From: Halomonas sp. ML-15
GTDB taxonomy: Bacteria > Pseudomonadota > Gammaproteobacteria > Pseudomonadales > Halomonadaceae
Reading direction: 5' to 3'
Assembly: GCF_014779595.1 (NCBI RefSeq)
Contig: NZ_JACXZT010000019.1
Span: 1,912,462-1,976,461, forward strand
Length of the DNA: 64,000 nt
The translations under genes were made by a program, and so were the position numbers. Of this stretch, positions 14,780-33,938 are shown piece after piece. Each line of letters starts with the position of its first letter. Position 1 is the stretch's first letter. The notes below the pieces were generated by a model. That model did not search any database, was not told the origin of the DNA, and saw only the letters and a list, made by a program, of their open reading frames with translations.

Positions 14780-14782
14780 GTA

Positions 14783-17850: not shown

Positions 17851-17929
17851 GGGCACAGATCCTTTTGAATGGTGGCGACCCGCCAAAACATGTACTGTAA
17901 TTGAAATATGTACAAGTTATGTCTCGCTT

Positions 17930-17935
17930 TATACT
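17930..17935 (+). promoter_or_regulatory. candidate -10 element for opgG
   Basis: TATACT lies 25 bases before the TTG start of opgG in the short divergent gap with the sulfatase-fold gene. The gap also holds TGTAC (17891-17895) and GTACA (17910-17914), an inverted pair that could be an operator. No good -35 box at 17-base spacing is visible, so this is a weak call. Confidence 0.35.
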
Positions 17936-17959
17936 ATCACTCTTCGCGAGGAAACGCCG

Positions 17960-19522
17960 TTGACTCCCCTGACAAATACGGGACGCACCGTGGCTCTGGG
18001 CTGCGCCTGCTGGTTACTCCTGCTGCCGCTGGTGAGCGCCGCCCAGAGTACCGAGGAGCACTTCGAGGCGGTGATCGAGCGCGCCGAAACGCTGGCTGGA
18101 GAGCCCCACGACAGTCGCCGCGGCGAGCTGCCCACCGCGCTCCGCGACCTGAACTATGACACTTACCGCCAGATCCGTTTCCGCGGTGATCGGGCGATCT
18201 GGCGCGACGCTGGTCTGTTCTCGGTGCAGTTGTTCCACAGCGGTTTTCTGTTCGAGACGCCGGTAACGCTCAATCTGATCGAAGATGGTGAAGTCCGTCC
18301 CCTGGAGTTCTCCAGCGACTATTACTCCTACGACGGCGACGCCGAACGCCTGCTCGAGGCCGACCTCGACGGCGCCGGCCATGCCGGCTTCCGGCTTCAC
18401 TACCCGCTCAACCGCGGCGACTACGACGATGAATTCCTGGTATTTCTCGGCGCCAGCTACTTCCGCCTGGTCGGCCGAGACCAAGGCTACGGCCTCTCCA
18501 CCCGCGGGCTGGCCATCGATACCGGCGGCTCCCAGGGGGAGGAGTTTCCCGCCTTTCGCGAGTTCTGGCTGGTCAAGCCAGACGATGATGCCAACGAGAT
18601 GAGCGTGCTGGCGCTGCTCGACAGCCCTTCGCTGGCCGGCGCCTACCGCTTCGATATCCGCCCCGGCCGCGATGTGGAGGTCGAGGTCGACGCCCGCCTG
18701 TTCGCCCGCCGCGACGTTGACAAGCTTGGCGTGGCGCCGTTGACCAGCATGTTTGCCCATGGCGATACCAGCGCCTACCCCGCCGATGACTTTCGGCCAC
18801 GCGTCCATGACTCCGAAGGCCTCACCATGCGCACCACCGCCGGCGAGTGGATCTGGCGGCCCTTGACCAATCCGCGTCGCTTGCGCTTCTCACGGCTGCT
18901 CGACGGCGAGCTCTCCGGCTTTGGTCTGGCCCAGCGTGAGCGCAATTTCGATGCCTACCTGGATATGGAAGCACGCTACGATCGTCGTCCCAGCCAGTGG
19001 GTCGAGGCGCTGGGCGGCGACTGGGGCAGCGGCGGCGTCGAGCTGGTGGAGATCCCCACCGACACCGAAACCAACGACAACATCGTTGCCTACTGGGTAC
19101 CGGATGAGCCGCTCAATGCCGGCGAGTCGCGGCGTTTCCACTACCGCACCCATACCTTCGGCTCACAGCCAGAGGCTCAGCAGGTCGCCAGCGTGGTGCG
19201 CACTCGCACCGGCTGGGCCGCCATCCCCGGCCAGAGCAACCCGCCACCGCGCAGCCGCCGACAGTTCATGGTCGATTTTCATGGCGGAGAACTCGCCGGC
19301 CTCGACGCCAGCCAGCCGGTGGACGCCGAGCTCACCACCAGCGACGGCGAGATTCACCAGCTGCAGGTACAGCAGCTCCCCGATGGCGATACCTGGCGCG
19401 CCAGCTTCCGCGTGCAGCCCGAAGGGCGCAGCGCCGCCGACATGCGCCTCTATCTGAGCCTGCGCGGCCAGCGAATCAGCGAAACCTGGAGCTATGTCTG
19501 GTACCCCGATGAGCTACGCTGA
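17960..19522 (+). CDS. opgG: periplasmic glucan biosynthesis protein OpgG/OpgD
   Basis: The product is a MdoG-family protein of about 520 residues that acts in the periplasm on the osmoregulated beta-glucan backbone. A signal peptide is visible (TVALGCACWLLLLPLVSAAQ) and the mature part starts with the family's FEAVIERAETLA. A TTG start is proposed because GAGGAAA sits eight bases upstream and no ATG lies between the promoter region and the signal peptide; the longest open frame would start far inside the divergent gene. Conserved blocks include FLGASYFRLVGRDQGYGLSTRGLAIDT-like text near residue 165. It overlaps opgH, the glucosyltransferase. Confidence 0.88.
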   Translation: MTPLTNTGRTVALGCACWLLLLPLVSAAQSTEEHFEAVIERAETLAGEPHDSRRGELPTALRDLNYDTYRQIRFRGDRAIWRDAGLFSVQLFHSGFLFETPVTLNLIEDGEVRPLEFSSDYYSYDGDAERLLEADLDGAGHAGFRLHYPLNRGDYDDEFLVFLGASYFRLVGRDQGYGLSTRGLAIDTGGSQGEEFPAFREFWLVKPDDDANEMSVLALLDSPSLAGAYRFDIRPGRDVEVEVDARLFARRDVDKLGVAPLTSMFAHGDTSAYPADDFRPRVHDSEGLTMRTTAGEWIWRPLTNPRRLRFSRLLDGELSGFGLAQRERNFDAYLDMEARYDRRPSQWVEALGGDWGSGGVELVEIPTDTETNDNIVAYWVPDEPLNAGESRRFHYRTHTFGSQPEAQQVASVVRTRTGWAAIPGQSNPPPRSRRQFMVDFHGGELAGLDASQPVDAELTTSDGEIHQLQVQQLPDGDTWRASFRVQPEGRSAADMRLYLSLRGQRISETWSYVWYPDELR

Positions 19523-21431
19523 GCCCGCGCCCCGCCAGCCGCTGTTGTGGCTGCGCCGGTTGGGCCTCGCTGGCGTGGTGCTGGGCAGCACCGCGCTGGG
19601 CGTAGCGACCATGTTCCGTATCCTCCATGACGGCGGATTGAGCATGCTGCAGGTCGCGGTGCTGGGGCTGTTCACCGTCACCTTCGGTTGGATCGCCCTG
19701 GCCTTCTGGACCGCTGTCATCGGATTTTTGCTTAGCCTGACCCGACGCGACCCGTTGAGCCTGGCACGCCAGACGCCACCGGTCGTCGCGCCGCTGAGCT
19801 CGCGCACCGCGCTGGTCATGCCGATCTACAACGAATCTCCGGCCCGCGCCCTGGCCGGCCTGGAAGCCACCTGTCAGGATCTGCTGGCCAGCGCCAATCA
19901 CGCTCTTGACGACCATATCGAAGCCTTCATCCTCAGCGACACTCGTGACGACGCCATCGCCGGCGATGAGCGACGCCATGTGGTGGCGCTACGTCAGCGC
20001 CTGGCCGGCCGGCTCGAGGTGCACTATCGTCGTCGCGCCGACAACACCGCGCGCAAGGCCGGTAACCTGGCCGAGTTCTGCCGCCGCTGGGGGCACCGCT
20101 ACGACTACCTGATAGTACTCGACGCGGATAGCCTGATGGGCGGCAAGAGCCTGCTCGCGATGATCGGCGCCATGCAGCGCGAGCCCGACCTGGGTCTGCT
20201 GCAGACGGTCCCGATCCCGGTGCGGCAATCCACCCTGTTCGGGCGATTCACGCAGTTCGCCGCGGCCCTCTACAGCCCCATGCTGGCCACCGGCCAGGCC
20301 TTCTGGCAGGGCGACTGCGCCAACTACTGGGGCCATAACGCCATCCTGCGCACCCGCGCCTTCATGGCTCACTGCGGGCTGCCGACGCTGCCAGGCCGCC
20401 CACCGCTGGGCGGCGATATCATGAGTCACGACTTCGTCGAAGCGGCGCTGCTGCGGCGCGGCGGCTGGCGGGTGAGGCTCGATGTGCGCCTCAACGACAG
20501 CTTCGAGGAGCTGCCCGGCAACCTGCTCGACTACGCCAAGCGCGACCGCCGCTGGACCCAGGGCAACCTGCAGCACCTGCGCCTGCTGGCGACTGCAGGC
20601 CTGCACCCCATCAGCCGCCTGCATTTCGCCATGGGGGCACTGGCCTATCTCTCCTCGCTGCTATGGGTGATGATGCTGGCGCTGAGCAGCGCCGCCGCCA
20701 TGCTCGACGTCTTCAGCCGCGAGCGCTTCTTCGGCGACAGCTACCAGCTGTTTCCCGACTGGCCGCTGGATACCAGCGCCATGGTCATGCCGCTGCTGGC
20801 GCTGACCGCCGCCATGCTGCTGCTGCCCAAGCTGTTTGGTCTGCTGCTGGCACTCTGGCAGACTCCTGCGGCCTTCGGCGGGCGCTGGCGATTGAGCATC
20901 AGCGCGCTGCTGGAAATGCTCCACGCGATCCTGATCGCACCGCTGATGATGGCCTACCACAGCGTCTTCGTGCTGGGCATTGTGCTCGGCCGCAGCGTCG
21001 GCTGGGATCCGCAGCTACGTGAGGGGCGCCCGGTGCCCTGGCGCCAGGCGTTTACCCACAGCCGTGCGGCCACCCTGCTCGGCGGCGGCTGGGCGCTGGC
21101 CATGTACCAGTTCACGCCGGCCTTCTTCTGGTGGCTGACGCCGGTATGGGCGGGGCTGATCGTCGCCCCGCTGCTGGTGAGGCTGTCGGGAAACCGTCGC
21201 CTTGGCGCCTGGCTGGCGAGGCTTGGACTGCTGGCGGTACCCAGCGAGGTATCTCCCGCCGCGGTGCTGACGCGCCTCGACCAGGCGCTGCATCGCCCCA
21301 CGCCGATGCTGGCCGATAGCGGCGCGGCCACTGCTCCGCCGGAACAACCGGGCGACATGCCGGCTCAAAGCCTTAGCCGGCGTCGCCGGCAACCCGCACG
21401 ACAGCGTCCGCCCCTCAAGGAACCGCACTGA
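19494..21431 (+). CDS. opgH: glucans biosynthesis glucosyltransferase OpgH
   Basis: A 645-residue inner-membrane family 2 glycosyltransferase that makes the linear beta-1,2-glucan chain from UDP-glucose. Two N-terminal membrane segments precede the cytosolic GT2 domain, which contains LDADSLMGG near residue 220 and the processive-enzyme motif RRWTQGN near residue 352; several further membrane helices follow. It is shorter than E. coli OpgH (847 residues), like other non-enteric versions. Two starts are possible: the ATG used here, and ATGAGCTAC 15 bases later (19509). The C-terminal 40 residues are Arg- and Pro-rich. It overlaps opgG and the next gene. Confidence 0.92.
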   Translation: MSGTPMSYAEPAPRQPLLWLRRLGLAGVVLGSTALGVATMFRILHDGGLSMLQVAVLGLFTVTFGWIALAFWTAVIGFLLSLTRRDPLSLARQTPPVVAPLSSRTALVMPIYNESPARALAGLEATCQDLLASANHALDDHIEAFILSDTRDDAIAGDERRHVVALRQRLAGRLEVHYRRRADNTARKAGNLAEFCRRWGHRYDYLIVLDADSLMGGKSLLAMIGAMQREPDLGLLQTVPIPVRQSTLFGRFTQFAAALYSPMLATGQAFWQGDCANYWGHNAILRTRAFMAHCGLPTLPGRPPLGGDIMSHDFVEAALLRRGGWRVRLDVRLNDSFEELPGNLLDYAKRDRRWTQGNLQHLRLLATAGLHPISRLHFAMGALAYLSSLLWVMMLALSSAAAMLDVFSRERFFGDSYQLFPDWPLDTSAMVMPLLALTAAMLLLPKLFGLLLALWQTPAAFGGRWRLSISALLEMLHAILIAPLMMAYHSVFVLGIVLGRSVGWDPQLREGRPVPWRQAFTHSRAATLLGGGWALAMYQFTPAFFWWLTPVWAGLIVAPLLVRLSGNRRLGAWLARLGLLAVPSEVSPAAVLTRLDQALHRPTPMLADSGAATAPPEQPGDMPAQSLSRRRRQPARQRPPLKEPH

Positions 21432-22240
21432 TGCCGCACACTCACGACTCCCCGCCATCACTGCAGGAGCGCGGCAAATCCCTGCTCGGCGTCGCTCGCT
21501 CGCTGGTCGTCTATTGGCGCCCCGGTCGTCAGCGCGGCCTGCAGCGACTCTACGAAGAGTTCCTGGCCCCCGGTGATCTGGCCTTCGATATCGGCGCACA
21601 CCTCGGCGACCGTACCGCCGCCTTCCAGGCGCTGGGCGCCGAGGTGGTGGCACTGGAACCACAACCGGCGCTGTTTCGTTGGCTGGTGCGACTGATGGGC
21701 GAGCGCAGCGGGCTAGTGCTGATGCCGCTGGCTGCAGGCCCCGAAGAGTGCGAGGCCGAGATTGCCATCAGCGCCGCCAACCCCAGCGTCTCGACCCTGG
21801 CGCGCCGCTGGCGGGAGCGCATCGGGCGCGACAACCCCGGCTTTCGACAGGTACGCTGGGAGCGTCGGATCACCGTGAGGGTCACTACCCTGGACGTATT
21901 GATCCAGCGTTTCGGCGTGCCGCGCTTTATCAAGATCGACGTCGAGGGCTTCGAAGCCGAGGTGCTGAGCGGTCTTAGCAAGCCGGTGGAGGCGCTATCG
22001 GTGGAGTTCGTCGCCGGCGCGCTGGACGTCTCCCAGGCCTGCGTCACGCGCCTTGAAGCGCTGGGTGATTACCGCTTCAATGCCATTCAGGGCGAGCGTC
22101 GCGAGTTTCTCTGGGATGAGTGGCGCAGCCCCGCCCAGGCTCACGACTGGCTGGCAGGCGGTGCCGACGGTCTCGCCTCAGGCGACCTCTATGCGCGCCT
22201 TCAGCCCAAGGCCACCCGAGACTTCGGAGAGATGTCATGA
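21431..22240 (+). CDS. FkbM-family methyltransferase
   Basis: A 269-residue protein with an FkbM SAM-binding core: LAFDIGAHLGDRT near residue 50, ALEPQP about 25 residues later, and FIKIDVEGFEAEVLSG near residue 178, the family's signature. FkbM enzymes O-methylate sugars, lipids or polyketides. Its ATG shares a base with the opgH stop (TGATG), so it is probably translated with opgGH; methylation of the periplasmic glucan or its precursor is a testable inference, not shown by sequence. Confidence 0.83.
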   Translation: MPHTHDSPPSLQERGKSLLGVARSLVVYWRPGRQRGLQRLYEEFLAPGDLAFDIGAHLGDRTAAFQALGAEVVALEPQPALFRWLVRLMGERSGLVLMPLAAGPEECEAEIAISAANPSVSTLARRWRERIGRDNPGFRQVRWERRITVRVTTLDVLIQRFGVPRFIKIDVEGFEAEVLSGLSKPVEALSVEFVAGALDVSQACVTRLEALGDYRFNAIQGERREFLWDEWRSPAQAHDWLAGGADGLASGDLYARLQPKATRDFGEMS

Positions 22241-23043
22241 CCACCCTCTGCCACTGGGCCGACCTCAGCCACTGCCGGCTCGGCGCCCTCGCCGGCGAGG
22301 ACCCGGTAGCGATTCTGGTCCTCGGTGCCATCGAGCAGCACGGTCACCACCTGCCCCTCTCCACCGATCTCGATATTGCTCTGGGCCTGCAGCAGGCAAC
22401 GCTGGAGGCCCTGCAGCGCCGCCAGGCGAAGGTATGCACCCTCTGCCTGCCACCCCTCGCGGTGGGCGCCAGCGACGAACACGCCAGCTATCCCGGCACC
22501 CTGAGCCTGCCCGCCCCGCTGGCCATCGCCACCCTCGAAGCCTACGGCGACAGCATCGCCCGAGCCGGCATTCGCCGCCTGCTGCTGCTCAATAGCCACG
22601 GCGGCAACAAGGCAGTGATGGATCTCGCTGCACTGACCCTGCGTCGCCGCCACGCCATGCTGGTGGTCAAGGCCACCTATACCCGGCTGGCACCACCGCC
22701 CAGCGACTGGCTGCCTGCCCAGGAGCTGCGCCACGGCCTCCACGGTGGCGCCCTGGAAACCGCCATGATGCTGCACTTGGCGCCGCACAAGGTCGAGATG
22801 TCGCTGGCCGGGCACCCTCCATCGAGCGGGGAGTCCCTGGCGGCCGCCGGCAAGCGCCTGGGCCCCGAAGGCGAGGCCGCCTTCGCCTGGCTGGCCGAGG
22901 ACCTGCACGCCGACGGCGTCGCCGGCAACGCCACCCTGGCCGACGCCGCACTCGGCGAGCGGCTGGTGGCGCACTACGCCGAGGGCCTGGCCGAGGTGGT
23001 GATCGAGACCCAGGCGCTATCGCTATCCGGCTGGGCTAAGTAG
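22237..23043 (+). CDS. creatininase-family amidohydrolase
   Basis: A 268-residue metal-dependent amidohydrolase. Metal-binding motifs are intact: EQHGHHLPLSTD at residues 33-44, NSHGGN near residue 125, and HGGALETAM near residue 168. The family includes creatininase, the mycofactocin peptidase MftE and the archaeal FAPy deformylase ArfB of flavin/F420 synthesis. GGAGAG precedes the ATG, which overlaps the FkbM stop (ATGA). It is last in the opgGH unit but also flanks RibA and RibD genes just downstream, so a deformylase-like step on a GTP-derived pyrimidine is a possible role. The neighbouring region 23044-23301 contains only a repeat. Confidence 0.82.
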   Translation: MTTLCHWADLSHCRLGALAGEDPVAILVLGAIEQHGHHLPLSTDLDIALGLQQATLEALQRRQAKVCTLCLPPLAVGASDEHASYPGTLSLPAPLAIATLEAYGDSIARAGIRRLLLLNSHGGNKAVMDLAALTLRRRHAMLVVKATYTRLAPPPSDWLPAQELRHGLHGGALETAMMLHLAPHKVEMSLAGHPPSSGESLAAAGKRLGPEGEAAFAWLAEDLHADGVAGNATLADAALGERLVAHYAEGLAEVVIETQALSLSGWAK

Positions 23044-23071
23044 CACTAAGCCAGGGCTGACAAGACAACGG

Positions 23072-23250
23072 AGACCGGGGGAAGGCCGAAGAGGAGGTGT
23101 CGATGCCAGGGGTGAGGAGCACTGCTCCGAACGGGCTGGCCATGGATGGCCAGCACCGGTCCTGCAAACGGAGCAGGATGCGAGAGTGCAGCAGGGCATC
23201 GGTAGCGCCCAGGGAGGGTTTACAGCGCCTCCTCGAAGGCCTTTCGACGG
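23072..23250. repeat. dispersed intergenic repeat, copy B (inverted relative to copy A)
   Basis: This gap between the creatininase and ribA genes carries the reverse complement of copy A with only scattered differences over about 170 bases, including TGGCCATGGATGGCCA, the GGAGCAGGATGCGAGAG block and GGTTTACAGCGCCTCCTCG. The open frame through it is not protein-like. Position between two convergent stop codons fits an element tolerated only between genes. Confidence 0.85.
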
Positions 23251-23301
23251 CCCCCCCCCGCCCTTGTCGCTATCTGCAAAAGGGCCGGGGAGTCAACGGG
23301 G

Positions 23302-24438
23302 CTACTTGCAGGCCGAGGAGCGTGATGTATCGGCGTGAAGCACATCATCCAGCAGATGGCCGGAACGTTCCGCCTTGGCGCTGAGGTAGCGACGGTTGTG
23401 ATCGTTGAGCTGGCCATACAGCGCCTGACGCTCCACCACCTCGATGCCGCCCGCCTCCAGTGCCACAATCTTCTGCGGGTTATTGGTCAACATCTGGATA
23501 CGCTGGATCTCGAGCGCGCCGAGCATATCCACCGCGGCGCGGTAGTGGCGCTCGTCGTCGCCAAAGCCCAGGACCTGATCGGCGTCCACGGTATCCAGGC
23601 CACCATCCTGCAGGGTGTAGGCGCGCAGCTTGTTGGCCAGGCCGATGCCGCGCCCTTCCTGCGCCAGATAGAGCAGTACCCCGCCGCCCAGCGACTCGAT
23701 ATCCGCCACCGCGTTGCGCAGCTGCTCGCCGCAGTCGCAGCGCAGGCTGCCGAACAGGTCACCGGTCAGACACGCCGAGTGCAGGCGCAGCGGTACCGCC
23801 GACGGCCAGTCACGGCGATGGCCGATGACCACCGCCACATGCTCACGCAGGCCGTCCGGCTCGCGAAACAGGATAAAGCGGCTCTCTGGCGCGTCGGCCA
23901 GCGGTATCCGCGCATCGCTGACTCGGGTCAGCATCCCCGCCGCACTGTCGAAGCAACCGATCGCCGCCTCGGCCTCGACGCTCAGCCACTCCCCGCTATC
24001 GATACGCGCCTGTGCCACGTCACGCGCCTCTCCGCTCAGCTTGACGGTGAGCGCCGCGGGGATCAGCAGCGCACGGCGCATCAGCGCCAGGGCACCGCGC
24101 TCGCCAGCATCGGCAGGTTGGGCCAGTGTCGCCACCCGCGGCTCGGGCTGAGAGCCGAACGCCAGGCGCTCGAGACGAGCCAGATCGAGCGGTCCGCAGC
24201 TGCTCAGCGGCAGTCGCAATGCCTCGGCCTGGTGGGCGTCAGCGCTGGCACCGAGTACCGCCAGGCGATGCCGGCTGACCACCAGCGCAGCTTCCGGCTG
24301 CAGCTCCTCCAGCCGCGCTGCCTGCAGCCCCTCCAGCGGCTGAATCAGGGTCGCCGTGTCGGCGTCCTGCAGCACCACCGGCACCCCGCGGCGTAGATCG
24401 AAGATGGCGCGCTCGACGTGATGTCCTATGCGTGGCAT
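23302..24438 (-). CDS. ribA: GTP cyclohydrolase II (RibA) with long N-terminal extension
   Basis: The 378-residue protein has a C-terminal GTP cyclohydrolase II domain from about residue 185. The zinc cysteines are in LHSACLTGDLFGSLRCDCG, and YLAQEGRGIGLANKLRAYTL plus MLTNNPQK are the catalytic/GTP regions. The N-terminal 180 residues lack the DHBP synthase (RibB) signature and look like a degenerate version. The enzyme would convert GTP to 2,5-diamino-6-ribosylamino-4-pyrimidinone 5'-phosphate with release of formate. AAGGAGG precedes the chosen ATG. No FMN riboswitch is visible upstream, and the neighbours are not other rib genes except a RibD reductase domain, so a role outside bulk riboflavin synthesis is plausible. 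Confidence 0.87.
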   Translation of the reverse strand: MPRIGHHVERAIFDLRRGVPVVLQDADTATLIQPLEGLQAARLEELQPEAALVVSRHRLAVLGASADAHQAEALRLPLSSCGPLDLARLERLAFGSQPEPRVATLAQPADAGERGALALMRRALLIPAALTVKLSGEARDVAQARIDSGEWLSVEAEAAIGCFDSAAGMLTRVSDARIPLADAPESRFILFREPDGLREHVAVVIGHRRDWPSAVPLRLHSACLTGDLFGSLRCDCGEQLRNAVADIESLGGGVLLYLAQEGRGIGLANKLRAYTLQDGGLDTVDADQVLGFGDDERHYRAAVDMLGALEIQRIQMLTNNPQKIVALEAGGIEVVERQALYGQLNDHNRRYLSAKAERSGHLLDDVLHADTSRSSACK

Positions 24439-24455
24439 ATAGCCTCCTTGTCGCC

Positions 24456-26417
24456 TCAACCGGGTAGGCGTATGGCACTGAGGGTAGTAAATCGACATAC
24501 GGGCGCGACGGCGCCGCGGGTGCGTTGGACTTGTGCCGCCCGAGGGGGCTGCCCATGATAAGAAACGTTTTTGATCGAGAGAGGCCGTGCATGAGCGAAG
24601 CCGCCAAGCCCCCAACGCCGCGCCGTGACGACGCCGACCTGGCGTTCGCCTGGAAGGCGCTGCTGACGGCGCGCGACCACTCCTGGGAGGATGTTACCGA
24701 GCTTGTCATCCACCGTAATAGTGCGCGTCTGACGCTGCACCGCGGCGGACACTGGCATGCCGAGCCGGCCCTGGACAGCGCCACCGCGGCCCTGCTCGAC
24801 AGCCTGCTGCCGCTGGTCTGCGATAGTGGACCGCGGGTCATCGCCCAACTCGGCCAGAGCCTCGACGGGCGTATCGCCACCCATAGCGGTCACTCCCACT
24901 ACATCAATGGATTCGAGAGCCGGGTTCACCTGCATCGGCTGCGCGCCCTGGTCGACGCAGTGCTGGTCGGCGCCGGCACCGCCGACGAGGACGACCCGCA
25001 GCTCAACGTGCGCCACATCGAGGGGCGCCAGCCGCTGCGCGTGGTGCTCGATCCGCGCGGCCGGGTGCCGGTCGCGCGGCGTGTATTTCAGGACCCGACG
25101 CTGCCCACCTTGCATCTGCTCGGCGAGGGCATGGCCCCGCCTGTCGGCGTCGGCGCGCATGTCGGCCAGCGCTGGCTGGCGCGTGACGCCGAGGGGCGAG
25201 TGGCTCCCCAGGCGGTGATCGACGCCCTCCAGCAGGCGGGCTGCCGCCGCGTGCTGATCGAGGGCGGCGGCCAGACCGTATCGCAGTTTATCGCCGCCGG
25301 CTGCGTCGACCGCCTGCATCTGCTGGTGGCGCCGCTGCTGATCGGCTCCGGCCGCCCCGGATTGACGCTGCCGCTCATCGACACCCTCGACCAGGCGCTG
25401 CGCCCGTCGATGCGGCGTTTCGACTGCGGCGACGACACCCTCTTCGATATCGCCTTGCGAGCCTCCGTTGGCTGAGCCAGGCGCCGCGCTGCGCTTACGC
25501 TGCCACCAGCATAGCGCCCCGGGCAGGCTGGCCAGCAGCACCAACAGCCCGTAGCTCACCGACACCGCCACGCCCTGGGCCGGCGGCAAGCCGACGCCGA
25601 GCCAGACCAGGGCCGCAGCGCCTTCGCGAAAGCCCCAGCCGGCCACCGACAGCGGGATCAGCATCGCCAGCAGCACCGGCGGAAGCAGCGCCAGCAGCGT
25701 GGTGGCCGGCAGCTCGACGCCGATGGCGCGAGCCGCGCAGACGAAGATCGCTCCATAGCTCGCCAGCACCAGCAGCGAGCCTCCCAACTGCGCCGGCCAG
25801 GCACGCCGGCTGAATAGCGCGCGATGCACATCGCCACCCAGCCCCTTGGCCCATAGCGGCATATTGAGGTTTGATCGATACAGCCTCCGCCACAGCACGG
25901 CGCCGAGTACGGCCAGTCCCAGCGCGCCGACGGCGCCTATGACCACGCCGGGGCGGGTCAGCAGCCGACCGAAGGCCGTATGCCACAGCGGCGACAGCGC
26001 CAGAATGGCCAGCGTGACCACCGCCAGTACCAGTTGCCCGGACGCGCGCTCGATCAGTACCCCGCGCCAGGCCGCCGCGCGCCTGCCGCTGGCACGGGCG
26101 TGGCGCCAGGCGCGGGTGGCATCACCCAATACCGCTCCGGGCAGCACCTGGTTGAGAAAGCTGGCCAGATAGTAGTCGTTGATGGCATGGCGCCAGCTCA
26201 GCCCCACCCCCAGACGAGAAGCGGTAAAGCGCCAGCGCCACGCCGAGATCACCACCTGGGGCAGGCTCAGCAGCAGCGCCAGCAGCACCCAGCCGGGGGC
26301 AAGCCGCTGTACTTCGGCGACCACTTCCCCAGCGTCCAGCCACACCGCAACACCGACCAGCAGCGCCAGGCTGACCGCCAGGCGCAGCAGGCTGCGCCGC
26401 CGCGAGGCGCCGACCAT
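24456..26417 (-). CDS. flippase-like (UPF0104 / lysylphosphatidylglycerol synthase membrane-domain) protein with no stop before the opposite-strand RibD gene
   Basis: Residues 1-309 form a recognisable UPF0104/AglD-type membrane domain with about eight helices; NDYYLASFLNQVLPGAVLGD near residue 60 and PLSVAGWGFREGAAALVW near residue 262 are family-like. Homologues are usually around 310-330 residues. Here the frame has no stop at that point and runs on for about 340 residues antisense to the RibD-like gene, ending 17 bases from ribA. The extra part looks like a shadow of RibD codons, so the biological C terminus is uncertain. It starts by a TGATG overlap with the methyltransferase gene upstream. 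Confidence 0.7.
   Translation of the reverse strand: MVGASRRRSLLRLAVSLALLVGVAVWLDAGEVVAEVQRLAPGWVLLALLLSLPQVVISAWRWRFTASRLGVGLSWRHAINDYYLASFLNQVLPGAVLGDATRAWRHARASGRRAAAWRGVLIERASGQLVLAVVTLAILALSPLWHTAFGRLLTRPGVVIGAVGALGLAVLGAVLWRRLYRSNLNMPLWAKGLGGDVHRALFSRRAWPAQLGGSLLVLASYGAIFVCAARAIGVELPATTLLALLPPVLLAMLIPLSVAGWGFREGAAALVWLGVGLPPAQGVAVSVSYGLLVLLASLPGALCWWQRKRSAAPGSANGGSQGDIEEGVVAAVETPHRRAQRLVEGVDERQRQSGAAGADQQRRHQQMQAVDAAGGDKLRYGLAAALDQHAAAARLLEGVDHRLGSHSPLGVTRQPALADMRADADRRGHALAEQMQGGQRRVLKYTPRDRHPAARIEHHAQRLAPLDVAHVELRVVLVGGAGADQHCVDQGAQPMQVNPALESIDVVGVTAMGGDTPVEALAELGDDPRSTIADQRQQAVEQGRGGAVQGRLGMPVSAAVQRQTRTITVDDKLGNILPGVVARRQQRLPGERQVGVVTARRWGLGGFAHARPLSIKNVSYHGQPPRAAQVQRTRGAVAPVCRFTTLSAIRLPG
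24591..25475 (+). CDS. RibD C-terminal-type (dihydrofolate reductase fold) reductase
   Basis: A 294-residue protein containing only a RibD reductase domain, from about residue 85: AQLGQSLDGRIATHSGHS, then LRALVDAVLVGAGTADEDDPQLNVR, and GCRRVLIEGGGQTVSQFI near residue 215. The deaminase half of bifunctional RibD is absent; the first 80 residues are not recognisable. The fold reduces the ribosyl side chain of GTP-derived pyrimidines with NADPH. The ATG at 24591 follows GAGAGAGG; two earlier in-frame ATGs lack such a site. It is divergent from ribA and is overlapped on the other strand by an unusually long open frame (24456-26417). Confidence 0.84.
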   Translation: MSEAAKPPTPRRDDADLAFAWKALLTARDHSWEDVTELVIHRNSARLTLHRGGHWHAEPALDSATAALLDSLLPLVCDSGPRVIAQLGQSLDGRIATHSGHSHYINGFESRVHLHRLRALVDAVLVGAGTADEDDPQLNVRHIEGRQPLRVVLDPRGRVPVARRVFQDPTLPTLHLLGEGMAPPVGVGAHVGQRWLARDAEGRVAPQAVIDALQQAGCRRVLIEGGGQTVSQFIAAGCVDRLHLLVAPLLIGSGRPGLTLPLIDTLDQALRPSMRRFDCGDDTLFDIALRASVG

Positions 26418-27316
26418 CAGTCGTCGCTCCCGGGGGGCAGCAGCAGCAGATCGACATGACCAACCCAGACCCCGCAGCGCCCGTTTGCCAGATCGCGCTG
26501 GCGGGCCAGCTGCCAGGCCTCGATACGCGCCGCCTGAGCAGGGCACTGTTCGACAGCCGCCGCGGCCCAGCCGGCCACCAGCGCCTGCCCCAGGGTCAAT
26601 GCCGCGTCGCTGCCCGGCGCCAGCTGCCACGGGCTAACGGCACGCGCAATCCGATAACCACGCTTCTCGAAGGCACTGACCAGCGCCGCCGGGGCCTCAC
26701 CGCCCAGCGCGGCACCGAGCCCCTTGTCGCGGCGCTGGTGGTCAACGAACTGACCGCGCACCCACTCATCCTCGGCGTCCCGGCGCGCGCCATCGGCATC
26801 GATAAACTGCCAGTGGCCATCGACGCTGAGGGTGAACAGCGCCGCCAATTGGCGAGCCGCGCAGGCCTCGGCCAGCGTCTCGATCCAGGCTGCCGAACAG
26901 AGATCCAACAGCGCCGAGGCGCACACCAGCTCGGCGCCATCGAGCAGACCAGGCAGTGCCTTGGCGTCGGCCAGATCGACCTGGCGACGCTCACTATCAA
27001 GCGACTTGCCCGCGGCGTCTTGGCAGCCTGCCAGCCGCTGGCGAGCGCTCTCCAGTAGCGCCGGATCGTGATCGACCAGCCGCCAGCGCTGGGGGCCGGG
27101 CAAGCGCGATGCCAGATAGGCGGGATTACTGGCACGCCCGCAGCCCAGATCGACCAGGGTCAGCGGCGCGCTGTTCGAGGCCCGGATACGGGTCAGCCAG
27201 GCGCCCGCTTCGGCGGTAAGCTCGGCGCAGCGCGCGGCGTGGTCGGCAGACTCGCGAAGCGCCAACCAGTCGCTGGCAAAGCGGCTGCCAACAGCACTGT
27301 TATCAGGGGCATTCAT
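26417..27316 (-). CDS. class I SAM-dependent methyltransferase of the pteridine-like cluster
   Basis: A 299-residue protein with a Rossmann methyltransferase domain: LTLVDLGCGRASNPAYLA around residues 53-70 is the SAM loop, and WRLVDHDPALL supplies the acidic residue that follows. Downstream sequence, including ELVCASALLDLCSAAW, fits family topology. The acceptor is unknown. It overlaps the glycosyltransferase gene (ATGA) and the flippase-like gene (TGATG), so it sits in the middle of a tightly coupled five-gene operon. Confidence 0.8.
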   Translation of the reverse strand: MNAPDNSAVGSRFASDWLALRESADHAARCAELTAEAGAWLTRIRASNSAPLTLVDLGCGRASNPAYLASRLPGPQRWRLVDHDPALLESARQRLAGCQDAAGKSLDSERRQVDLADAKALPGLLDGAELVCASALLDLCSAAWIETLAEACAARQLAALFTLSVDGHWQFIDADGARRDAEDEWVRGQFVDHQRRDKGLGAALGGEAPAALVSAFEKRGYRIARAVSPWQLAPGSDAALTLGQALVAGWAAAAVEQCPAQAARIEAWQLARQRDLANGRCGVWVGHVDLLLLPPGSDD

Positions 27317-28380
27317 AGATGCGGCGCTCCGAGGGCAGCGGCGAAGGCATCGCCGGCCGCCTGCCAGTCGCTCTGCCGTTCGCGGGCTGCGATGGCACCG
27401 CGGCGCAGTTCCCGCCGCAGACGGGCATCATTCAGCCAGCTGCGCAGCGCCCCGCGCAGGGCAGACGCATCGCCAGGCGCTACCGCCAGGCCAGCCCCCT
27501 CCGGCAAGGTGAAACGCAGCGCACCGCCGGTGGTGGTAATCACCGGCAGGCCGCGGGCTAGCGCTTCGGTGACCACCATCCCGTAGCCTTCATAGTGGGA
27601 GGGCAGCACGAACAGGTCGGCGCTGCGGTAGGCAGCGTCCAACGCCTCGGAGTCGCGTTCGCCGAGCAACCGCAGCTGCTCCGTCAGGCCATGCTCGGCG
27701 ATGCTGGCGGCCACGCGTGCGGCGTGGTCCGGGTCGCGGTCTAGTCCGCCGATGCAGTCACAGGTCCAGCGAGTCGCATCCAGCCCGGCCAGCGCCTCGA
27801 CCAGCAGGTCGTGGCCCTTGCGCGGGGTCAGCGTGGCCACGCACAGCAGCCTCTGGGGGCGTTGGCTATCTTCCAGATCGAGGGCGCTGGGCGCCAGCGA
27901 CGCCGGCTCGACGCCAGGTTCCACCACCTGAGCCGTGGCAATCCCCATGTCGCGCAGCCGCCGGGCGGTAAAGGCGCTGGTGCTGATCACCCTCGCCACC
28001 GCGGCCAGGGCGCGCGCCTCGCTGTCCAGAAACCGCACTTGGCTGGCCTCATCCAGGCCAGTCTCGTCGGCCAGCGGGTGATGCACCAGGGCGGTGAGAT
28101 CGAGACGCTCGGCGTGGGCCTGGACGACCTCGGGCAGGCCGCCCATGGCCAGGCCGTCGATCACCACACGGCTATCGTCGGGCTGGGCGGCCAGCGCCGT
28201 CTCCAGGGCGTCTCGAGCCTGGGCATCGGGGTCAGGAAAGCGCCCCGCCAGTCCCACCACCGATACCTGCCAACCGCGCGCCTCCAGGGCGGCCACGATG
28301 CGGGCATCGTAGACATAACCCCCGGTCAGCTGACCGGGATCGCCGGCGACGATCAGGCAAAGGGTGTGCGGCGCCGCCAT
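27313..28380 (-). CDS. glycosyltransferase family 4 (GT-B) protein
   Basis: A 355-residue GT-B glycosyltransferase. The N-terminal domain starts with a glycine-rich loop DPGQLTGGYVYDARI; the C-terminal donor domain includes LLCVATLTPRKGHDLLVEAL near residue 180 and the GT4 signature region FVLPSHYEGYGMVVTEALARGLPVI near residue 255 with the EX7E-type glutamates. It would transfer a sugar from a nucleotide donor to the cluster's product. Overlaps with both neighbours (TAATG and ATGA) mark one operon. Confidence 0.87.
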   Translation of the reverse strand: MAAPHTLCLIVAGDPGQLTGGYVYDARIVAALEARGWQVSVVGLAGRFPDPDAQARDALETALAAQPDDSRVVIDGLAMGGLPEVVQAHAERLDLTALVHHPLADETGLDEASQVRFLDSEARALAAVARVISTSAFTARRLRDMGIATAQVVEPGVEPASLAPSALDLEDSQRPQRLLCVATLTPRKGHDLLVEALAGLDATRWTCDCIGGLDRDPDHAARVAASIAEHGLTEQLRLLGERDSEALDAAYRSADLFVLPSHYEGYGMVVTEALARGLPVITTTGGALRFTLPEGAGLAVAPGDASALRGALRSWLNDARLRRELRRGAIAARERQSDWQAAGDAFAAALGAPHL

Positions 28381-28778
28381 TACAGCTGCCCCTCGTAGCT
28401 AGCCCAGGCGATATGCGATTCGTGGAGGGTTACCGTCAGCGCCTCCAATCCACGCCCGCTGTCGCCCAGGCGCCCTTCGGCAATCGCCGCCGCGAGGCGT
28501 TCGAAAATCACCCGCGCCATGAACTCGGTGGTGGTATTGCGTCCCTGAAACTCCTCCAGGTCGTCGAGATTATGGAAATTGAATTCTGCCAGCAGGGTCG
28601 ACAGCGTCTCGCTGGCCAGGCCGATATCGACGATCAGGTCGTCGTCATCCAGCTCGCAGCGCTGGAAAGTGACGTCGACCACATAGGTGGCGCCGTGGGT
28701 ACGCTGGGCGGGGCCGAAGATATCGCCACGAAAGCTATGGGCGATCATGAAGTGGTCACGGACGGTCAGGCGATACAT
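28380..28778 (-). CDS. divergent 6-pyruvoyl-tetrahydropterin synthase / QueD homologue
   Basis: A 132-residue PTPS-fold protein: N-terminal FMIAHSFRGDIFG, then RTHGATYVVDVTFQ, FNFHNLDDL and the pterin-anchor region GRNTTTEFMA. In PTPS/QueD the zinc is held by one early His and by both His of an HGH motif; here HGH reads HGA (residues about 38-40), so the third ligand is missing, and the usual catalytic Cys before it is also absent. The pterin-binding Glu is retained. It may bind or transform a pteridine by different chemistry. GAGGAGCC precedes the ATG. Confidence 0.82.
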   Translation of the reverse strand: MYRLTVRDHFMIAHSFRGDIFGPAQRTHGATYVVDVTFQRCELDDDDLIVDIGLASETLSTLLAEFNFHNLDDLEEFQGRNTTTEFMARVIFERLAAAIAEGRLGDSGRGLEALTVTLHESHIAWASYEGQL

Positions 28779-28807
28779 GCTTGGCTCCTCGATCGGGGCA
28801 AATCAGT

Positions 28808-29791
28808 TCAGGTCGGTGCATAGCGAATTCGGTGGCAGAGCACCCTGCCGCCGCCCTGCACCAGGCGCGGCATCTCGTCAGGCAGCGACGCAAACGGCGT
28901 CTCACCGCTGATCAGGGCGTCCAGGCGCGGCTCGGCCAGCAGACGCAACGCGAGCTCCAGGCGACGCCGAAAGTCCCAGCGCGGCTGACGCTGCGGCGCA
29001 ATGCCACCCACCTGGCTGGAGCGCAGGGTTAGTCGCTGGGAGTGGAAGGCACCTCCCAACGACAGCGCCACCGGCTGCTCGCCGTACCAGCTCATCTCGA
29101 CCAGCGTGGCCTCCCGTGCGGCCACACGCAGTGCCGTCTCCAGCCCCGCAGGGTGACCACTGACATGGATCACCAGGTCGTTGTCGAGGGGTGCCTCCTC
29201 GGGGAGGGCAAAGTTCACGCCTAACGACTGGGCCAGGCTGGCACGACCAGGTTCGATGTCCACCAGGCATACCTGGGTGCCGGGAATGCCGTCGCAAAGC
29301 CAGGCCACTAGCGCGCCCACCACCCCGGCGCCGATCACGCAGATCCGGTCGCCGAGCCCGGGGGCGGCGTCCCACACGCCGTTGATGGCGGTTTCGAGAT
29401 TGGCCGCCAGCACGGCACGCTCGGCGGGCACGTCATCGGGCAGCAGATGCACGGCGCTGGCCGGTACCACATAGCGCTGCTGATGGGGGTAGAGGCAAAA
29501 CACCCTACGTTCACGCAGCTCCTCTGGCCCCTCGACCACCCGCCCGACGCTGGCGTAGCCATATTTCAGCGGGCCGGGGAAATCGCCCTCCTGAAACGGC
29601 GCCCGCATGCGCTGATACTCACTGGGCGGCACTCGGCCGGTGAACACCAGCGCTTCGGTGCCCCTGCTGACGCCGCTGTAAAGCGCTTCGACCAGCACAT
29701 CCTGCGGGCCTGGTGCCTCCAGGGGCTGACTGCGCAGTACCCCGTGCCCGGGGGCCAACGTCCAAAAGGCCATGCTGGTCGTATAAGGCAT
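28808..29791 (-). CDS. zinc-type alcohol dehydrogenase-like (MDR) oxidoreductase
   Basis: A 327-residue medium-chain dehydrogenase. LVEALYSGVSRGTEALVFTGRVP near residue 35 is the GroES-like substrate domain and ICVIGAGVVGALVAWL near residue 148 the NAD(P)-binding loop, followed by DIEPGRASLAQSLG. The usual catalytic zinc Cys is replaced by Ser (SGVSRGTE), as in some reductases of secondary metabolism, so it may work without catalytic zinc. It is the first gene of the five-gene operon. ATG at 29791 was preferred to an upstream TTG for which the ribosome site is weak. Confidence 0.82.
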   Translation of the reverse strand: MPYTTSMAFWTLAPGHGVLRSQPLEAPGPQDVLVEALYSGVSRGTEALVFTGRVPPSEYQRMRAPFQEGDFPGPLKYGYASVGRVVEGPEELRERRVFCLYPHQQRYVVPASAVHLLPDDVPAERAVLAANLETAINGVWDAAPGLGDRICVIGAGVVGALVAWLCDGIPGTQVCLVDIEPGRASLAQSLGVNFALPEEAPLDNDLVIHVSGHPAGLETALRVAAREATLVEMSWYGEQPVALSLGGAFHSQRLTLRSSQVGGIAPQRQPRWDFRRRLELALRLLAEPRLDALISGETPFASLPDEMPRLVQGGGRVLCHRIRYAPT

Positions 29792-29856
29792 ATCGCGGTC
29801 CCGGTGGTGAGTCGCTGTACTCAAGACGCCTTTTAGGCATTAAGGTTTCAATATCT

Positions 29857-29871
29857 GTACAATATATGTAC
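29857..29871. promoter_or_regulatory. inverted repeat in the divergent promoter of the pteridine-like cluster
   Basis: GTACA-ATATA-TGTAC lies in the 192-base gap between the dehydrogenase operon (leftward) and the CDP-alcohol phosphatidyltransferase gene (rightward), in an AT-rich stretch. It is a candidate operator for joint control. TGTACA-like pairs are used by several MerR-type regulators, but no regulator gene is nearby. The rest of the gap shows no other clear structure. Confidence 0.4.
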
Positions 29872-29983
29872 CAGAAGGAAAATTTGCATCATTTTTCGCC
29901 ACTGACGCTGCACTGAGCTAGCCTAATAGCCATGGCTATTCCACAACACAGCTCCCCTTAGCTATAGCGCATAAGAGACCAGC

Positions 29984-30712
29984 ATGAGCCGGATACTCTC
30001 TCCCTCCGCCACCGTTCAGCGCCCCTTTGCCGACCTGGCAGCCGGGCTGGCCGTGGTGCTGGTGTTAGCGCAGCTCGCCCAGCATGCGCTGACCGCACCG
30101 GGGTGGCTGGCACTTACCAGCGGCCTGAGCTATCTCATCATCGCGGGGCTGGTGGCAGCTGCCTGGACCGGGGAGCTGCGCCGGTTTGGCTGGGCTAACC
30201 GTGTAACGCTGCTGCGCGGCACTTTGATCGCGCTGCTCGCTGGTAGTCTGTGGTGGCCGGCCCTGTGGCAGCAGCACGCCGTTGCGCTCGCCGCTATCGC
30301 TGGCGCCGCACTGCTGCTCGACGGTATCGATGGCTGGGTGGCCCGACGCACCGGATCCAGCAGCGCCTTTGGTGCACGCTTCGATATGGAACTGGACGCC
30401 AGCTTTATTCTGCTGCTATGCCTGGCGCTGGTGGTGCTCGGCAAGGTCGGCAGCTGGGTGCTGCTGATCGGCGCGATGCGCTACGTCTTCGTGGTCAGCG
30501 GGCATCTGTGGCCCTGGCTGCGGGCGCCGCTGCCGGAGAGTCTGCGCCGCAAGGCGGTGTGTGTCGTCCAGGTGGTCGCCCTGATGATCGCCCTGCTGCC
30601 CGCGGTGTCAGCCGCCCAGGCCAGCCTGCTGACGGCACTGGCGCTGCTGCTGTTAAGCCTCTCCTTTGCCCTCGATGTTCACTGGCTGGCTGGCAAGCCA
30701 GCCGCAAAATAG
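29984..30712 (+). CDS. CDP-alcohol phosphatidyltransferase family protein
   Basis: A 242-residue integral membrane protein with about six hydrophobic segments. The CDP-OH-P active-site motif is complete: DGIDGWVARRTGSSSAFGAR followed by FDMELD, giving the D-G-x2-A-R-x8-G-x3-D-x3-D pattern near residues 111-134. The family joins CDP-activated alcohols (usually CDP-diacylglycerol) to a hydroxyl acceptor. It is divergent from the dehydrogenase-PTPS-GT-methyltransferase-flippase operon, suggesting it may attach a lipid to that pathway's product. The acceptor is not predictable. Confidence 0.85.
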   Translation: MSRILSPSATVQRPFADLAAGLAVVLVLAQLAQHALTAPGWLALTSGLSYLIIAGLVAAAWTGELRRFGWANRVTLLRGTLIALLAGSLWWPALWQQHAVALAAIAGAALLLDGIDGWVARRTGSSSAFGARFDMELDASFILLLCLALVVLGKVGSWVLLIGAMRYVFVVSGHLWPWLRAPLPESLRRKAVCVVQVVALMIALLPAVSAAQASLLTALALLLLSLSFALDVHWLAGKPAAK

Positions 30713-30968: not shown

Positions 30969-31637
30969 ATGGGCTATCGCTTTACCGACCTCACCGCCGC
31001 TTGCCAGGACGATTGGCGCGCCTATATCGAGCACGACTTCGTTCGTCAGTTGGGCCAGGGCCGCCTCGCCGATGAGGCCTTCCGCCACTACCTCAAGCAG
31101 GACTACCTGTTTCTGATCCACTTTGCGCGTGCCTATGCGCTGGCCGCCTACAAGAGCCCGACCCTGGCCGATCTGCGCCAGGCGTATGAAGGCTTGAAGG
31201 CGATCGTCGACGTCGAGCTCGAGCTGCACGTCGGCTACTGCCGGGAGTGGGGCATCAGTGAGCAGCAGCTGGCCGAGCTCCCCGAAGCCCGCGCCACCCT
31301 CGCCTATACCCGCTACGTGCTGGATACCGGCAACCGCGGCGACCTGCTCGACCTGCATGTGGCGCTCGCCCCCTGCCTGATCGGCTATGGCGAGATCGCC
31401 AACTGGCTCAATGCCCAGCCCGATACCCTGCGCGGCGATGCCAACCCCTATGACGCCTGGATCGCCATGTACGAGGGCGAAGAGTTCCAGGCCGCCATGC
31501 GTGCCGAACTCGAATGGCTCGATGCGCGCCTGGCCGACGTCACCCCGGCGCGCTTCGAGGAGCTGACGCGGATCTTCCGCGACGCGACGCGGCTCGAGAT
31601 CGACTTCTGGCAGATGGGGCTGGATGGTGCGGACTAA
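30969..31637 (+). CDS. tenA: TenA family aminopyrimidine aminohydrolase / thiaminase II
   Basis: The 222-residue all-helical TenA protein contains FRHYLKQDYLFLIHFARAYA near residue 37 and the catalytic Cys region ALAPCLIGYGEI near residue 137. TenA hydrolyses aminopyrimidine breakdown products of thiamine for salvage. GGAGGAAAG precedes the ATG. It has its own TPP riboswitch and is separated from thiC by 411 bases holding a repeat and the second riboswitch, so both pyrimidine salvage and synthesis respond to thiamine diphosphate. Confidence 0.92.
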   Translation: MGYRFTDLTAACQDDWRAYIEHDFVRQLGQGRLADEAFRHYLKQDYLFLIHFARAYALAAYKSPTLADLRQAYEGLKAIVDVELELHVGYCREWGISEQQLAELPEARATLAYTRYVLDTGNRGDLLDLHVALAPCLIGYGEIANWLNAQPDTLRGDANPYDAWIAMYEGEEFQAAMRAELEWLDARLADVTPARFEELTRIFRDATRLEIDFWQMGLDGAD

Positions 31638-31665
31638 GGCAGTGGCCACGCTATCGCCGAGCTAT

Positions 31666-31762
31666 GCCGGGGACAAGCCTGCGCGAGGGCGCTGTAAACC
31701 CTTCCCTGGGCGCTACTTTTGCCATCCATGGCAAAAAACCCTCGCTCCGCCTTGTCCCCGGC
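31666..31762. repeat. dispersed intergenic repeat, copy C (short form with terminal inverted repeats)
   Basis: A 97-base unit bounded by perfect 12-base inverted repeats GCCGGGGACAAG (31666-31677) and CTTGTCCCCGGC (31751-31762). It shares GGCGCTGTAAACCCTTCC and CTGGGCGCTAC with copies A and B, and has an inner palindrome TTTTGCCATCCATGGCAAAA. It could fold into a long stem-loop. It sits between tenA and the thiC riboswitch; the remaining bases of that 411-base gap (to 31861) show no gene. Confidence 0.85.
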
Positions 31763-31861
31763 GCTCGGCTCACCTCGTGCCAGCCTTCGAGCAGTAACCA
31801 CGCGTCGCCTCTGGTCAAGGCGACACGCTTCACCGCGATACTCCGGTATCGCCGACCACCA

Positions 31862-33938
<2,077 letters not shown>

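Follow-up and report, generated by a model that had tools for sequence, protein, structure and literature searches.

The window analyzed here, a 64,000-nucleotide stretch of the Halomonas sp. ML-15 genome (contig NZ_JACXZT010000019.1, positions 1,912,462 to 1,976,461), contains nine neighboring genes, from a creatininase-family amidohydrolase to a CDP-alcohol phosphotransferase (CDP-OH), that represent one copy of the SCO6650 cluster, a biosynthetic cluster of wide distribution, as shown by gene identity and conservation (Table 1). The families assigned to these genes in a preliminary description, made from the sequence alone, are recovered with Pfam, the matches of the methyltransferase (MT) and of the MDR dehydrogenase lying below the cut-off. 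Five of the genes form a minus-strand operon in the order MDR, PTPS, GT4, MT, and flippase, with gaps of 29, -1, -4, and -4 nt counted from MDR, in agreement with the coupling or close spacing noticed earlier. The same strand encodes RibA on the far side of the convergent ribD, and the plus strand holds the creatininase, ribD, and CDP-OH genes.

Table 1 Genes of the cluster in the window, flanking genes, and fusion proteins of divergent clusters
Feature	Position	Strand	Basis or remark
Creatininase-family amidohydrolase, candidate formamidase	22237-23043	+	Pfam, E 1e-60
RibA (GTP cyclohydrolase II; GTP_cyclohydro2)	23302-24435	-	Pfam; N-terminal half RibB-like
Stand-alone RibD_C reductase with N-terminal extension	24591-25475	+	Pfam
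Flippase-like membrane protein (LPG_synthase_TM)	25448-26420	-	Pfam; frame stop-free until 24456
Class I S-adenosylmethionine methyltransferase (MT)	26417-27316	-	Pfam match below cut-off and structure model
GT4 glycosyltransferase	27313-28380	-	Pfam
T-fold "PTPS", SCO6650 family	28380-28778	-	Pfam and residues
MDR dehydrogenase, first gene of the operon	28808-29791	-	Pfam ADH_zinc_N, below cut-off
CDP-alcohol phosphotransferase (CDP-OH_P_transf)	29984-30712	+	Pfam
FkbM-family methyltransferase	21431-22240	+	recurs near cluster, 27/91 loci
MdoH (periplasmic glucan glucosyltransferase)	19494-21431	+	recurs near cluster
MdoG	17603-19522	+	recurs together with MdoH in some relatives
Sulfatase-superfamily protein	16225-17886	-	hydrophobic stretches in first 170 aa; start uncertain; recurs near cluster
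RibA-RibD_C fusion protein	L160 11370-12713	-	beside MDR and PTPS
RibA-RibD_C fusion protein	L163 8504-9805	+	beside MDR and PTPS

The MDR dehydrogenase is BchC-like according to NCBIfam, with a score below the model cut-off. The fold model of MT (mean predicted local distance difference test, pLDDT, of 94) supports a class I methyltransferase, and its comparison with known structures gives many different class I methyltransferases with similar scores, which indicates no specific substrate. The GT4 profile best matches Tll1590 and the D-inositol-3-phosphate glycosyltransferase group. The sequence DxxDGxxARx8GxxxDxxxD, which we take to be the motif of CDP-alcohol phosphotransferases, is complete in the window protein and invariant in the 24 sequences aligned.

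The only close solved relative of the PTPS-like protein is SCO6650 from Streptomyces coelicolor (PDB 3D7J; 130 aa, E 7e-52), so that the cluster, described earlier as uncharacterized, has an unsolved product but belongs to a family with a solved member. We compared 92 members (the 91 loci described below and the window) with E. coli QueD from the K-12 record, using QueD numbering. Among the presumed catalytic residues Cys27, Asp70, and His71, the Cys is replaced by Ala in 91 members and by Glu in one, the Asp is kept in three and lost in 89, and the His is kept in none. Of the three His residues that we assume to bind zinc, His16 and His31 are present in all 92 members and His33 is Ala in 91, the haloarchaeal copy being the one that retains it; three divergent Gammaproteobacterial copies outside the 92 also retain this third His and lack the Cys. 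The pterin-anchor Glu110 is conserved in 92/92. These losses, together with the kept Glu, suggest that the protein can hold a 2-amino-4-oxo heterocycle and can hardly perform the known PTPS reaction. A PTPS or QueD function was considered and rejected, given the loss of the catalytic Cys and His throughout and of one zinc ligand in all but one member, and the PTPS chemistry implied earlier is abandoned with it. From its close sequence, lost triad, and conserved Glu, we assign the protein to the SCO6650-type T-fold family. The structure paper on SCO6650 (work of Spoonamore and Bandarian) reportedly describes a T-fold without zinc and triad, in which the pterin site is kept and PTPS activity is absent. 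A 2016 review (PMC5041015) distinguishes PTPS/QueD paralogue families PTPS-I to VI, with an unclear function for PTPS-V; the window protein belongs to the same protein family, might correspond to PTPS-V, and differs by the loss of the catalytic Cys and His.

A tblastn search with the window PTPS against plasmid records gave 21 records, from which 11 neighborhoods were fetched, 10 of them annotated. MDR, a gene labeled "6-carboxytetrahydropterin synthase", GT4, and MT occur in a row in five of these; the Methylosinus and Haloarcula loci have a hypothetical protein at the MT position, and two Rhodobacterales loci show the row without GT4. Scanning a species-genome collection with a 21-member PTPS alignment gave at least 591 matching stretches, and the best 80 of these plus the 11 plasmid loci constitute the 91 loci. 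This set was selected by PTPS match and leans to close relatives, and short contigs are included in its counts, which are PTPS 91, MDR 90, GT4 89, and MT 87 for the core, followed by CDP-OH 76, RibD 68, flippase 64, creatininase 48, and RibA 47. With the flanking window proteins as queries, FkbM is found in 27 loci, MdoG in 19, the sulfatase in 19, and MdoH in 18. With loci grouped by record titles, Gamma-, Beta-, and Alphaproteobacteria and Actinomycetes all retain the core genes, as do four contigs assigned, by their titles, to Gemmatimonadota or Acidobacteria metagenome-assembled genomes, and one haloarchaeon holds part of the set (MDR, PTPS, GT4, CDP-OH, and creatininase). In a tree of 69 tips, the 21 actinomycete tips form one clade. 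The genes recur together across classes rather than being scattered, and thus belong together, as the preliminary description supposed.

Because these loci were selected by PTPS, we ran a reverse test from the MDR side in 274 Gammaproteobacterial genomes (MDR subfamily at E ≤ 1e-20, at most 8 candidates scored per genome). The MDR subfamily is present in 16 of the 274, and 15 of the 16 also have PTPS (12 strong matches and three weak but adjacent ones), which is adjacent to MDR in 14 cases and on another contig in one; MDR is present in each of the 12 genomes in which PTPS matches strongly. The co-occurrence gives a Fisher probability of 6e-18 on strong matches and, as an upper claim, of 8e-24 when the three weak PTPS and no other genome are counted. 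A further 76 genomes with only weak PTPS matches (5e-9 or weaker) were taken, by score, to contain ordinary PTPS/QueD, and MDR lies within 1.5 kb of the weak match in 0 of 16 loci fetched from them. The cluster is carried by 90 of 151 genomes of the family to which the window belongs, and MDR by 22 of 349 genomes across the phylum. A second, more distant MDR copy without cluster neighbors was observed in genome G672.

Most members of the set also diverge together. Mantel correlations with PTPS distances are 0.83 for MDR (61 loci), 0.79 for GT4 (48), 0.74 for flippase (31), 0.65 for CDP-OH (47), 0.61 for creatininase (26), and 0.56 for MT (57), each unreached in 1000 permutations; the calculation used rows of 101 to 480 aa, a range that excludes run-on flippases.

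The window RibA keeps all three zinc Cys residues, Tyr105, Asp126, and Arg128, to which we assign the roles assumed for this enzyme family. Among cluster RibA proteins, the zinc Cys, Asp126, and Arg128 are found in 48/48 and Tyr105 in 33/48, position 105 being otherwise Met in 13, Ile in one, and His in one. The Met type is restricted to actinomycetes and accompanied by the creatininase in 13/13 cases; SCO6655, with a Tyr-to-Met change, is said to stop at the formylated pyrimidine. The long N-terminal extension noticed earlier is present but not new, as the protein can be aligned over its full length with NCBIfam NF006456 (RibA, PRK08815), below the model cut-off. In the RibA model (mean pLDDT 84), the extension best matches RibBA 4i14 and then RibB structures, with E values of about 1e-4 to 1e-5. 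The RibB acidic motif is kept in 0 of 31 long cluster RibA proteins and present in the genome's own RibBA, and the N-terminal half is, as far as the model tells, a dead RibB.

The best fit of the RibD_C profile is to 6p8c, a structure deposited under the name 2,5-diamino-6-ribosylamino-4(3H)-pyrimidinone 5'-phosphate reductase, followed by 2azn. An activity of the 6p8c type acts before deamination, and a domain search found no deaminase domain in the window RibD_C protein. Two divergent clusters encode RibA-RibD_C fusions of 447 and 433 aa, immediately ahead of MDR and PTPS. In the creatininase, Glu33, His35, Asp44, His121, and Glu174, presumably the metal ligands, are invariant in the 19 sequences aligned, making this protein a candidate formamidase for 2-amino-5-formylamino-6-ribosylamino-4(3H)-pyrimidinone 5'-phosphate (AFRPP). 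This lead is stronger than originally stated, since PMC9478397 presents BrbF, a bacterial creatininase-like enzyme, as a proven formamidase for the formylated pyrimidine derived from GTP. Taken together, the fit to 6p8c, the RibA-RibD_C fusions, the lack of a deaminase, and the probably dead RibB half point to 2,5-diamino-6-ribitylamino-4(3H)-pyrimidinone 5'-phosphate as the entry compound, not to lumazine or riboflavin. The earlier lumazine reading does not hold, given this RibB half and the fact that no RibH was seen in the cluster.

The regular genes lie elsewhere in the genome (4.8 Mb in 20 contigs), which has three RibA matches, the RibA of the cluster among them, and a full-length RibD with deaminase beside RibBA. 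With a full RibD, a RibBA, and a third RibA elsewhere, RibA and RibD of the cluster are extra copies, and the single-copy situation that the preliminary description had named as contradicting it does not apply. Neither a deaminase nor RibB, RibH (lumazine synthase), or RibE (riboflavin synthase) was found among the cluster proteins with Pfam and NCBIfam, consistent with its statement that regular riboflavin partner genes are missing there. The second PTPS-family protein of the genome is a QueD-type tandem of two PTPS stretches (L128 1480-2316, minus strand), adjoining frames read as queE and queC.

Genes related to the envelope accompany the cluster in patterns that differ between lineages. 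Of the 92 loci, 25 contain YceI, 23 a sulfatase-superfamily protein, and five cytochrome b561 (example identities by Pfam). Two further samples were chosen by MDR. In the first, made up of 15 Gammaproteobacterial genomes in addition to that of the window (16 regions, 8 to 20 kb in length), the cluster is accompanied by RibD in 12, CDP-OH in 11, flippase in seven, YceI in six, and RibA in five. The other sample comprises 13 of the 22 MDR-positive genomes of the phylum, all outside the window's class, leaving aside six of its family (its own included) and three of its order; here we find PTPS in 13, RibD in 12, GT4 in 12, MT in 11, RibA in seven, and creatininase in one, with MdoH in seven, b561 in six, FkbM in four, the sulfatase in two, and CDP-OH and flippase in one each. 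PTPS-chosen alphaproteobacterial loci have CDP-OH in 5/10 and flippase in 3/10. Outside the class, seven of 16 genome-wide MdoH copies lie near the cluster, where 0.08 are expected, and six of 53 cytochrome b561 copies, where 0.24 are expected; in the 16 Gammaproteobacterial genomes, this holds for six of 20 YceI copies over the cut-off, against 0.14 expected. These Poisson expectations are based on rounded genome sizes and a stretch of 19.9 kb and ignore kinship between genomes, two of which belong to one genus; YceI and b561 had already been seen in the first locus set when they were chosen for the test. A link of MdoGH to the whole family was rejected in view of its uneven occurrence across the three sets. 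YceI and b561 are not next to the cluster of the window, and the only YceI match of the genome lies elsewhere. In a divergent cluster, genes for cytochrome b561 and cytochrome c' (L162 81-2747) adjoin the CDP-alcohol phosphotransferase gene. According to PMC9113575, YceI lipocalins carry polyprenyl molecules or ubiquinone, and in Burkholderia a b561 and a YceI protein (LcoA-BcnA) jointly counteract lipid peroxyl radicals. The enrichment of MdoH, b561, and YceI, combined with these roles, leads us to read the product as an envelope molecule, which is perhaps redox-active.

We propose, with a probability of about 0.5, that the cluster makes a glycosylated and methylated GTP-derived heterocycle that is delivered to the envelope and possibly redox-active; we infer the substrates, the order of the steps, the product, and the lipid link. 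RibA would open GTP to a ribosylaminopyrimidine 5'-phosphate, the creatininase-family protein would remove any remaining formyl group, and the stand-alone RibD_C would reduce the ribose to ribityl. As no deaminase is present, the 2-amino group would stay, leaving a guanine-like 2-amino-4-oxo edge for the Glu of the T-fold protein, whose role would differ from that of PTPS/QueD and may be, for example, ring closure, side-chain rearrangement, or holding of an intermediate. The MDR enzyme may perform a redox step, GT4 would add a sugar, and MT a methyl group. Delivery to the envelope would depend on a lineage-specific module, putatively the CDP-alcohol phosphotransferase with the flippase-like protein in the window, MdoH, often with cytochrome b561, in other lineages, and, in yet others, a membrane protein of the phosphotransferase type or a YceI lipocalin. 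The end product would be a diaminopyrimidine or pterin that is glycosylated, associated with the envelope, and probably redox-active. Of the earlier proposal, the GTP-derived, glycosylated, and methylated heterocycle is supported, in an envelope-linked form that fits the data best; lipid attachment stays conjectural, as CDP-OH and flippase each lie near the cluster in one of the 13 genomes sampled outside the class. A bolder version, which we regard as speculative and rather unlikely, is a new envelope cofactor, a glycosylated and methylated ribityl-diaminopyrimidine or 8-ribityl-pterin, joined to a phospholipid via its ribityl by the CDP-alcohol phosphotransferase or carried along with periplasmic glucans, flipped outward, kept reduced by b561, and carried by YceI; such a molecule would be a pterin counterpart of membrane quinones and tocopherol, spread across phyla and partly to haloarchaea.

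Several observations weigh against the proposed pathway. No metabolite is known for the cluster, and the T-fold protein, lacking its zinc site, may be no enzyme. A Streptomyces sp. NBC_00028 plasmid (L034 14001-14399) has the PTPS-like gene alone (61% identity to that of the window), and the other twelve window proteins have no tblastn match within 14 kb of it, while genome G174 has MDR with RibA and RibD and no PTPS was found in it. For RibD, co-divergence with PTPS is weak (Mantel r 0.32, 49 loci, reached by 3 of 1000 permutations), and the window RibD alone reaches 134.7 bits with the bacterial RibD C-terminal model, against 101.4 with the model for the archaeal reductase. The creatininase stands beside 27 of 33 Tyr-type RibA proteins, where no separate deformylase should be needed. 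Since no RibD was found next to 15 of 23 actinomycete loci and no RibA next to 44 of the 91 loci, some contigs ending early, a common precursor is not proven. MdoG and MdoH are near the cluster in 0 of the 15 other Gammaproteobacterial genomes, and the single occurrence of CDP-OH and of flippase in the 13 genomes outside the class argues against a universal lipid link.

These last two observations also bear on other explanations. The product could be a soluble or secreted glycosylated pterin or pyrimidine, such as a pigment, UV screen, signal, or antibiotic, whose membrane proteins serve export or are unrelated. We consider this possible though doubtful: CDP-OH and flippase are missing near 12 of the 13 clusters outside the class, and the PTPS-like gene is found on 21 plasmid records, like many accessory metabolite genes, but the frequency and co-divergence of CDP-OH and flippase in the 91 loci and the enrichment of MdoH, b561, and YceI fit an envelope product better. 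The cluster might instead modify an envelope glycan or lipid, RibA, RibD, and the T-fold protein making a head group (e.g. a phospho-ribityl heterocycle) that the sulfatase-superfamily protein, as a phosphotransferase, moves from lipid to periplasmic glucans. The adjacency of MdoH in seven of 13 genomes and the sulfatase-superfamily protein in a quarter of the loci (23/92), with hydrophobic N-terminal stretches in the window protein and four others looked at, would suit such a role, which is nevertheless quite unlikely, as MdoGH is missing near the cluster in the Gammaproteobacterial sample and the sulfatase-superfamily proteins matched no NCBIfam model (five tried) and no PDB chain (two tried).

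RibA, a formamidase-like protein, and RibD_C are flavin enzymes, and PMC9478397 argues for parallel branches, RibBA versus BrbF in Sinorhizobium, so that a second riboflavin or flavin supply might be considered. Such a supply is very improbable, given the lack of deaminase, RibB, RibH, and RibE in the cluster and the complete RibD and RibBA elsewhere in the genome, and it would leave GT4, MT, and MDR unexplained. A chance neighborhood of unrelated genes, for which we found nothing beyond the variable satellites, is hardly conceivable in view of the recurrence in 91 loci, the reverse MDR test, the co-divergence, and the two further genome samples.

Relative to known systems, the cluster is partly known and not wholly new, as its parts belong to known families and one member has a structure. 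A Streptomyces copy (L043) runs PTPS-GT4-MT-flippase-creatininase-RibA, an order that by our own deduction fits the S. coelicolor numbering SCO6650-SCO6655, SCO6655 being the GTP cyclohydrolase II. The window differs from it by the additional RibD_C, FkbM, and MdoGH, and its RibA keeps the Tyr that is reportedly Met in SCO6655. With the riboflavin pathway the cluster shares the first enzyme and the reductase domain, but deaminase, RibB, RibH, and RibE were not found in it and its RibB half has lost the motif. By annotation, the window creatininase and BrbF belong to the same family; BrbF acts on the formylated pyrimidine and serves riboflavin (PMC9478397), whereas the partner genes of the window creatininase are no flavin set. 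Similarly, relatives of the cluster carry YceI or b561 as in the LcoA (b561)-BcnA (YceI) pair (PMC9113575), whereas the window cluster has neither alongside. In the literature searched, mostly without subscription papers, we found no description of the conserved set, the RibA-RibD_C fusion, the eroded RibB half, or the switching envelope modules.

The cluster represents an inter-phylum pathway with no known product; a single species-level collection gives at least 591 matching stretches, and one member has a solved structure but no assigned function. If the product is indeed an envelope-bound GTP-derived cofactor, it would be a membrane molecule of a new kind, with a redox or protective role, and would explain both the orphan PTPS subfamily labeled "6-carboxytetrahydropterin synthase" (queuosine) in records and the extra RibA and RibD copies resembling riboflavin genes. 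As the gene set is fixed, this question lends itself to direct tests in cultivable Halomonas or Streptomyces.

The cluster is wider than the nine genes, as FkbM, MdoH, MdoG, and the membrane "sulfatase" (together 16225-22240) recur alongside in some relatives. The flippase-like frame (24456-26420, minus strand) remains open past the membrane part, running antisense through all of ribD and ending just before ribA, and in 14 of 34 loci examined, all of Halomonas type and including the window, its end falls between -18 and +25 nt relative to the start of ribA. In GC-rich DNA, an antisense frame in codon register with a gene frequently lacks stops; since this frame is codon-aligned with ribD and codon use is GC-rich, an open antisense frame is expected, and the tail over ribD may be a run-on without function. 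At 13847-16228, just before the sulfatase-superfamily gene, we observe a lipid A acyltransferase-type gene and one for a mannose-1-phosphate guanylyltransferase of the ManC type, and the cluster is followed (30969-33938) by a TenA-family gene and ThiC, the latter read from the translation.

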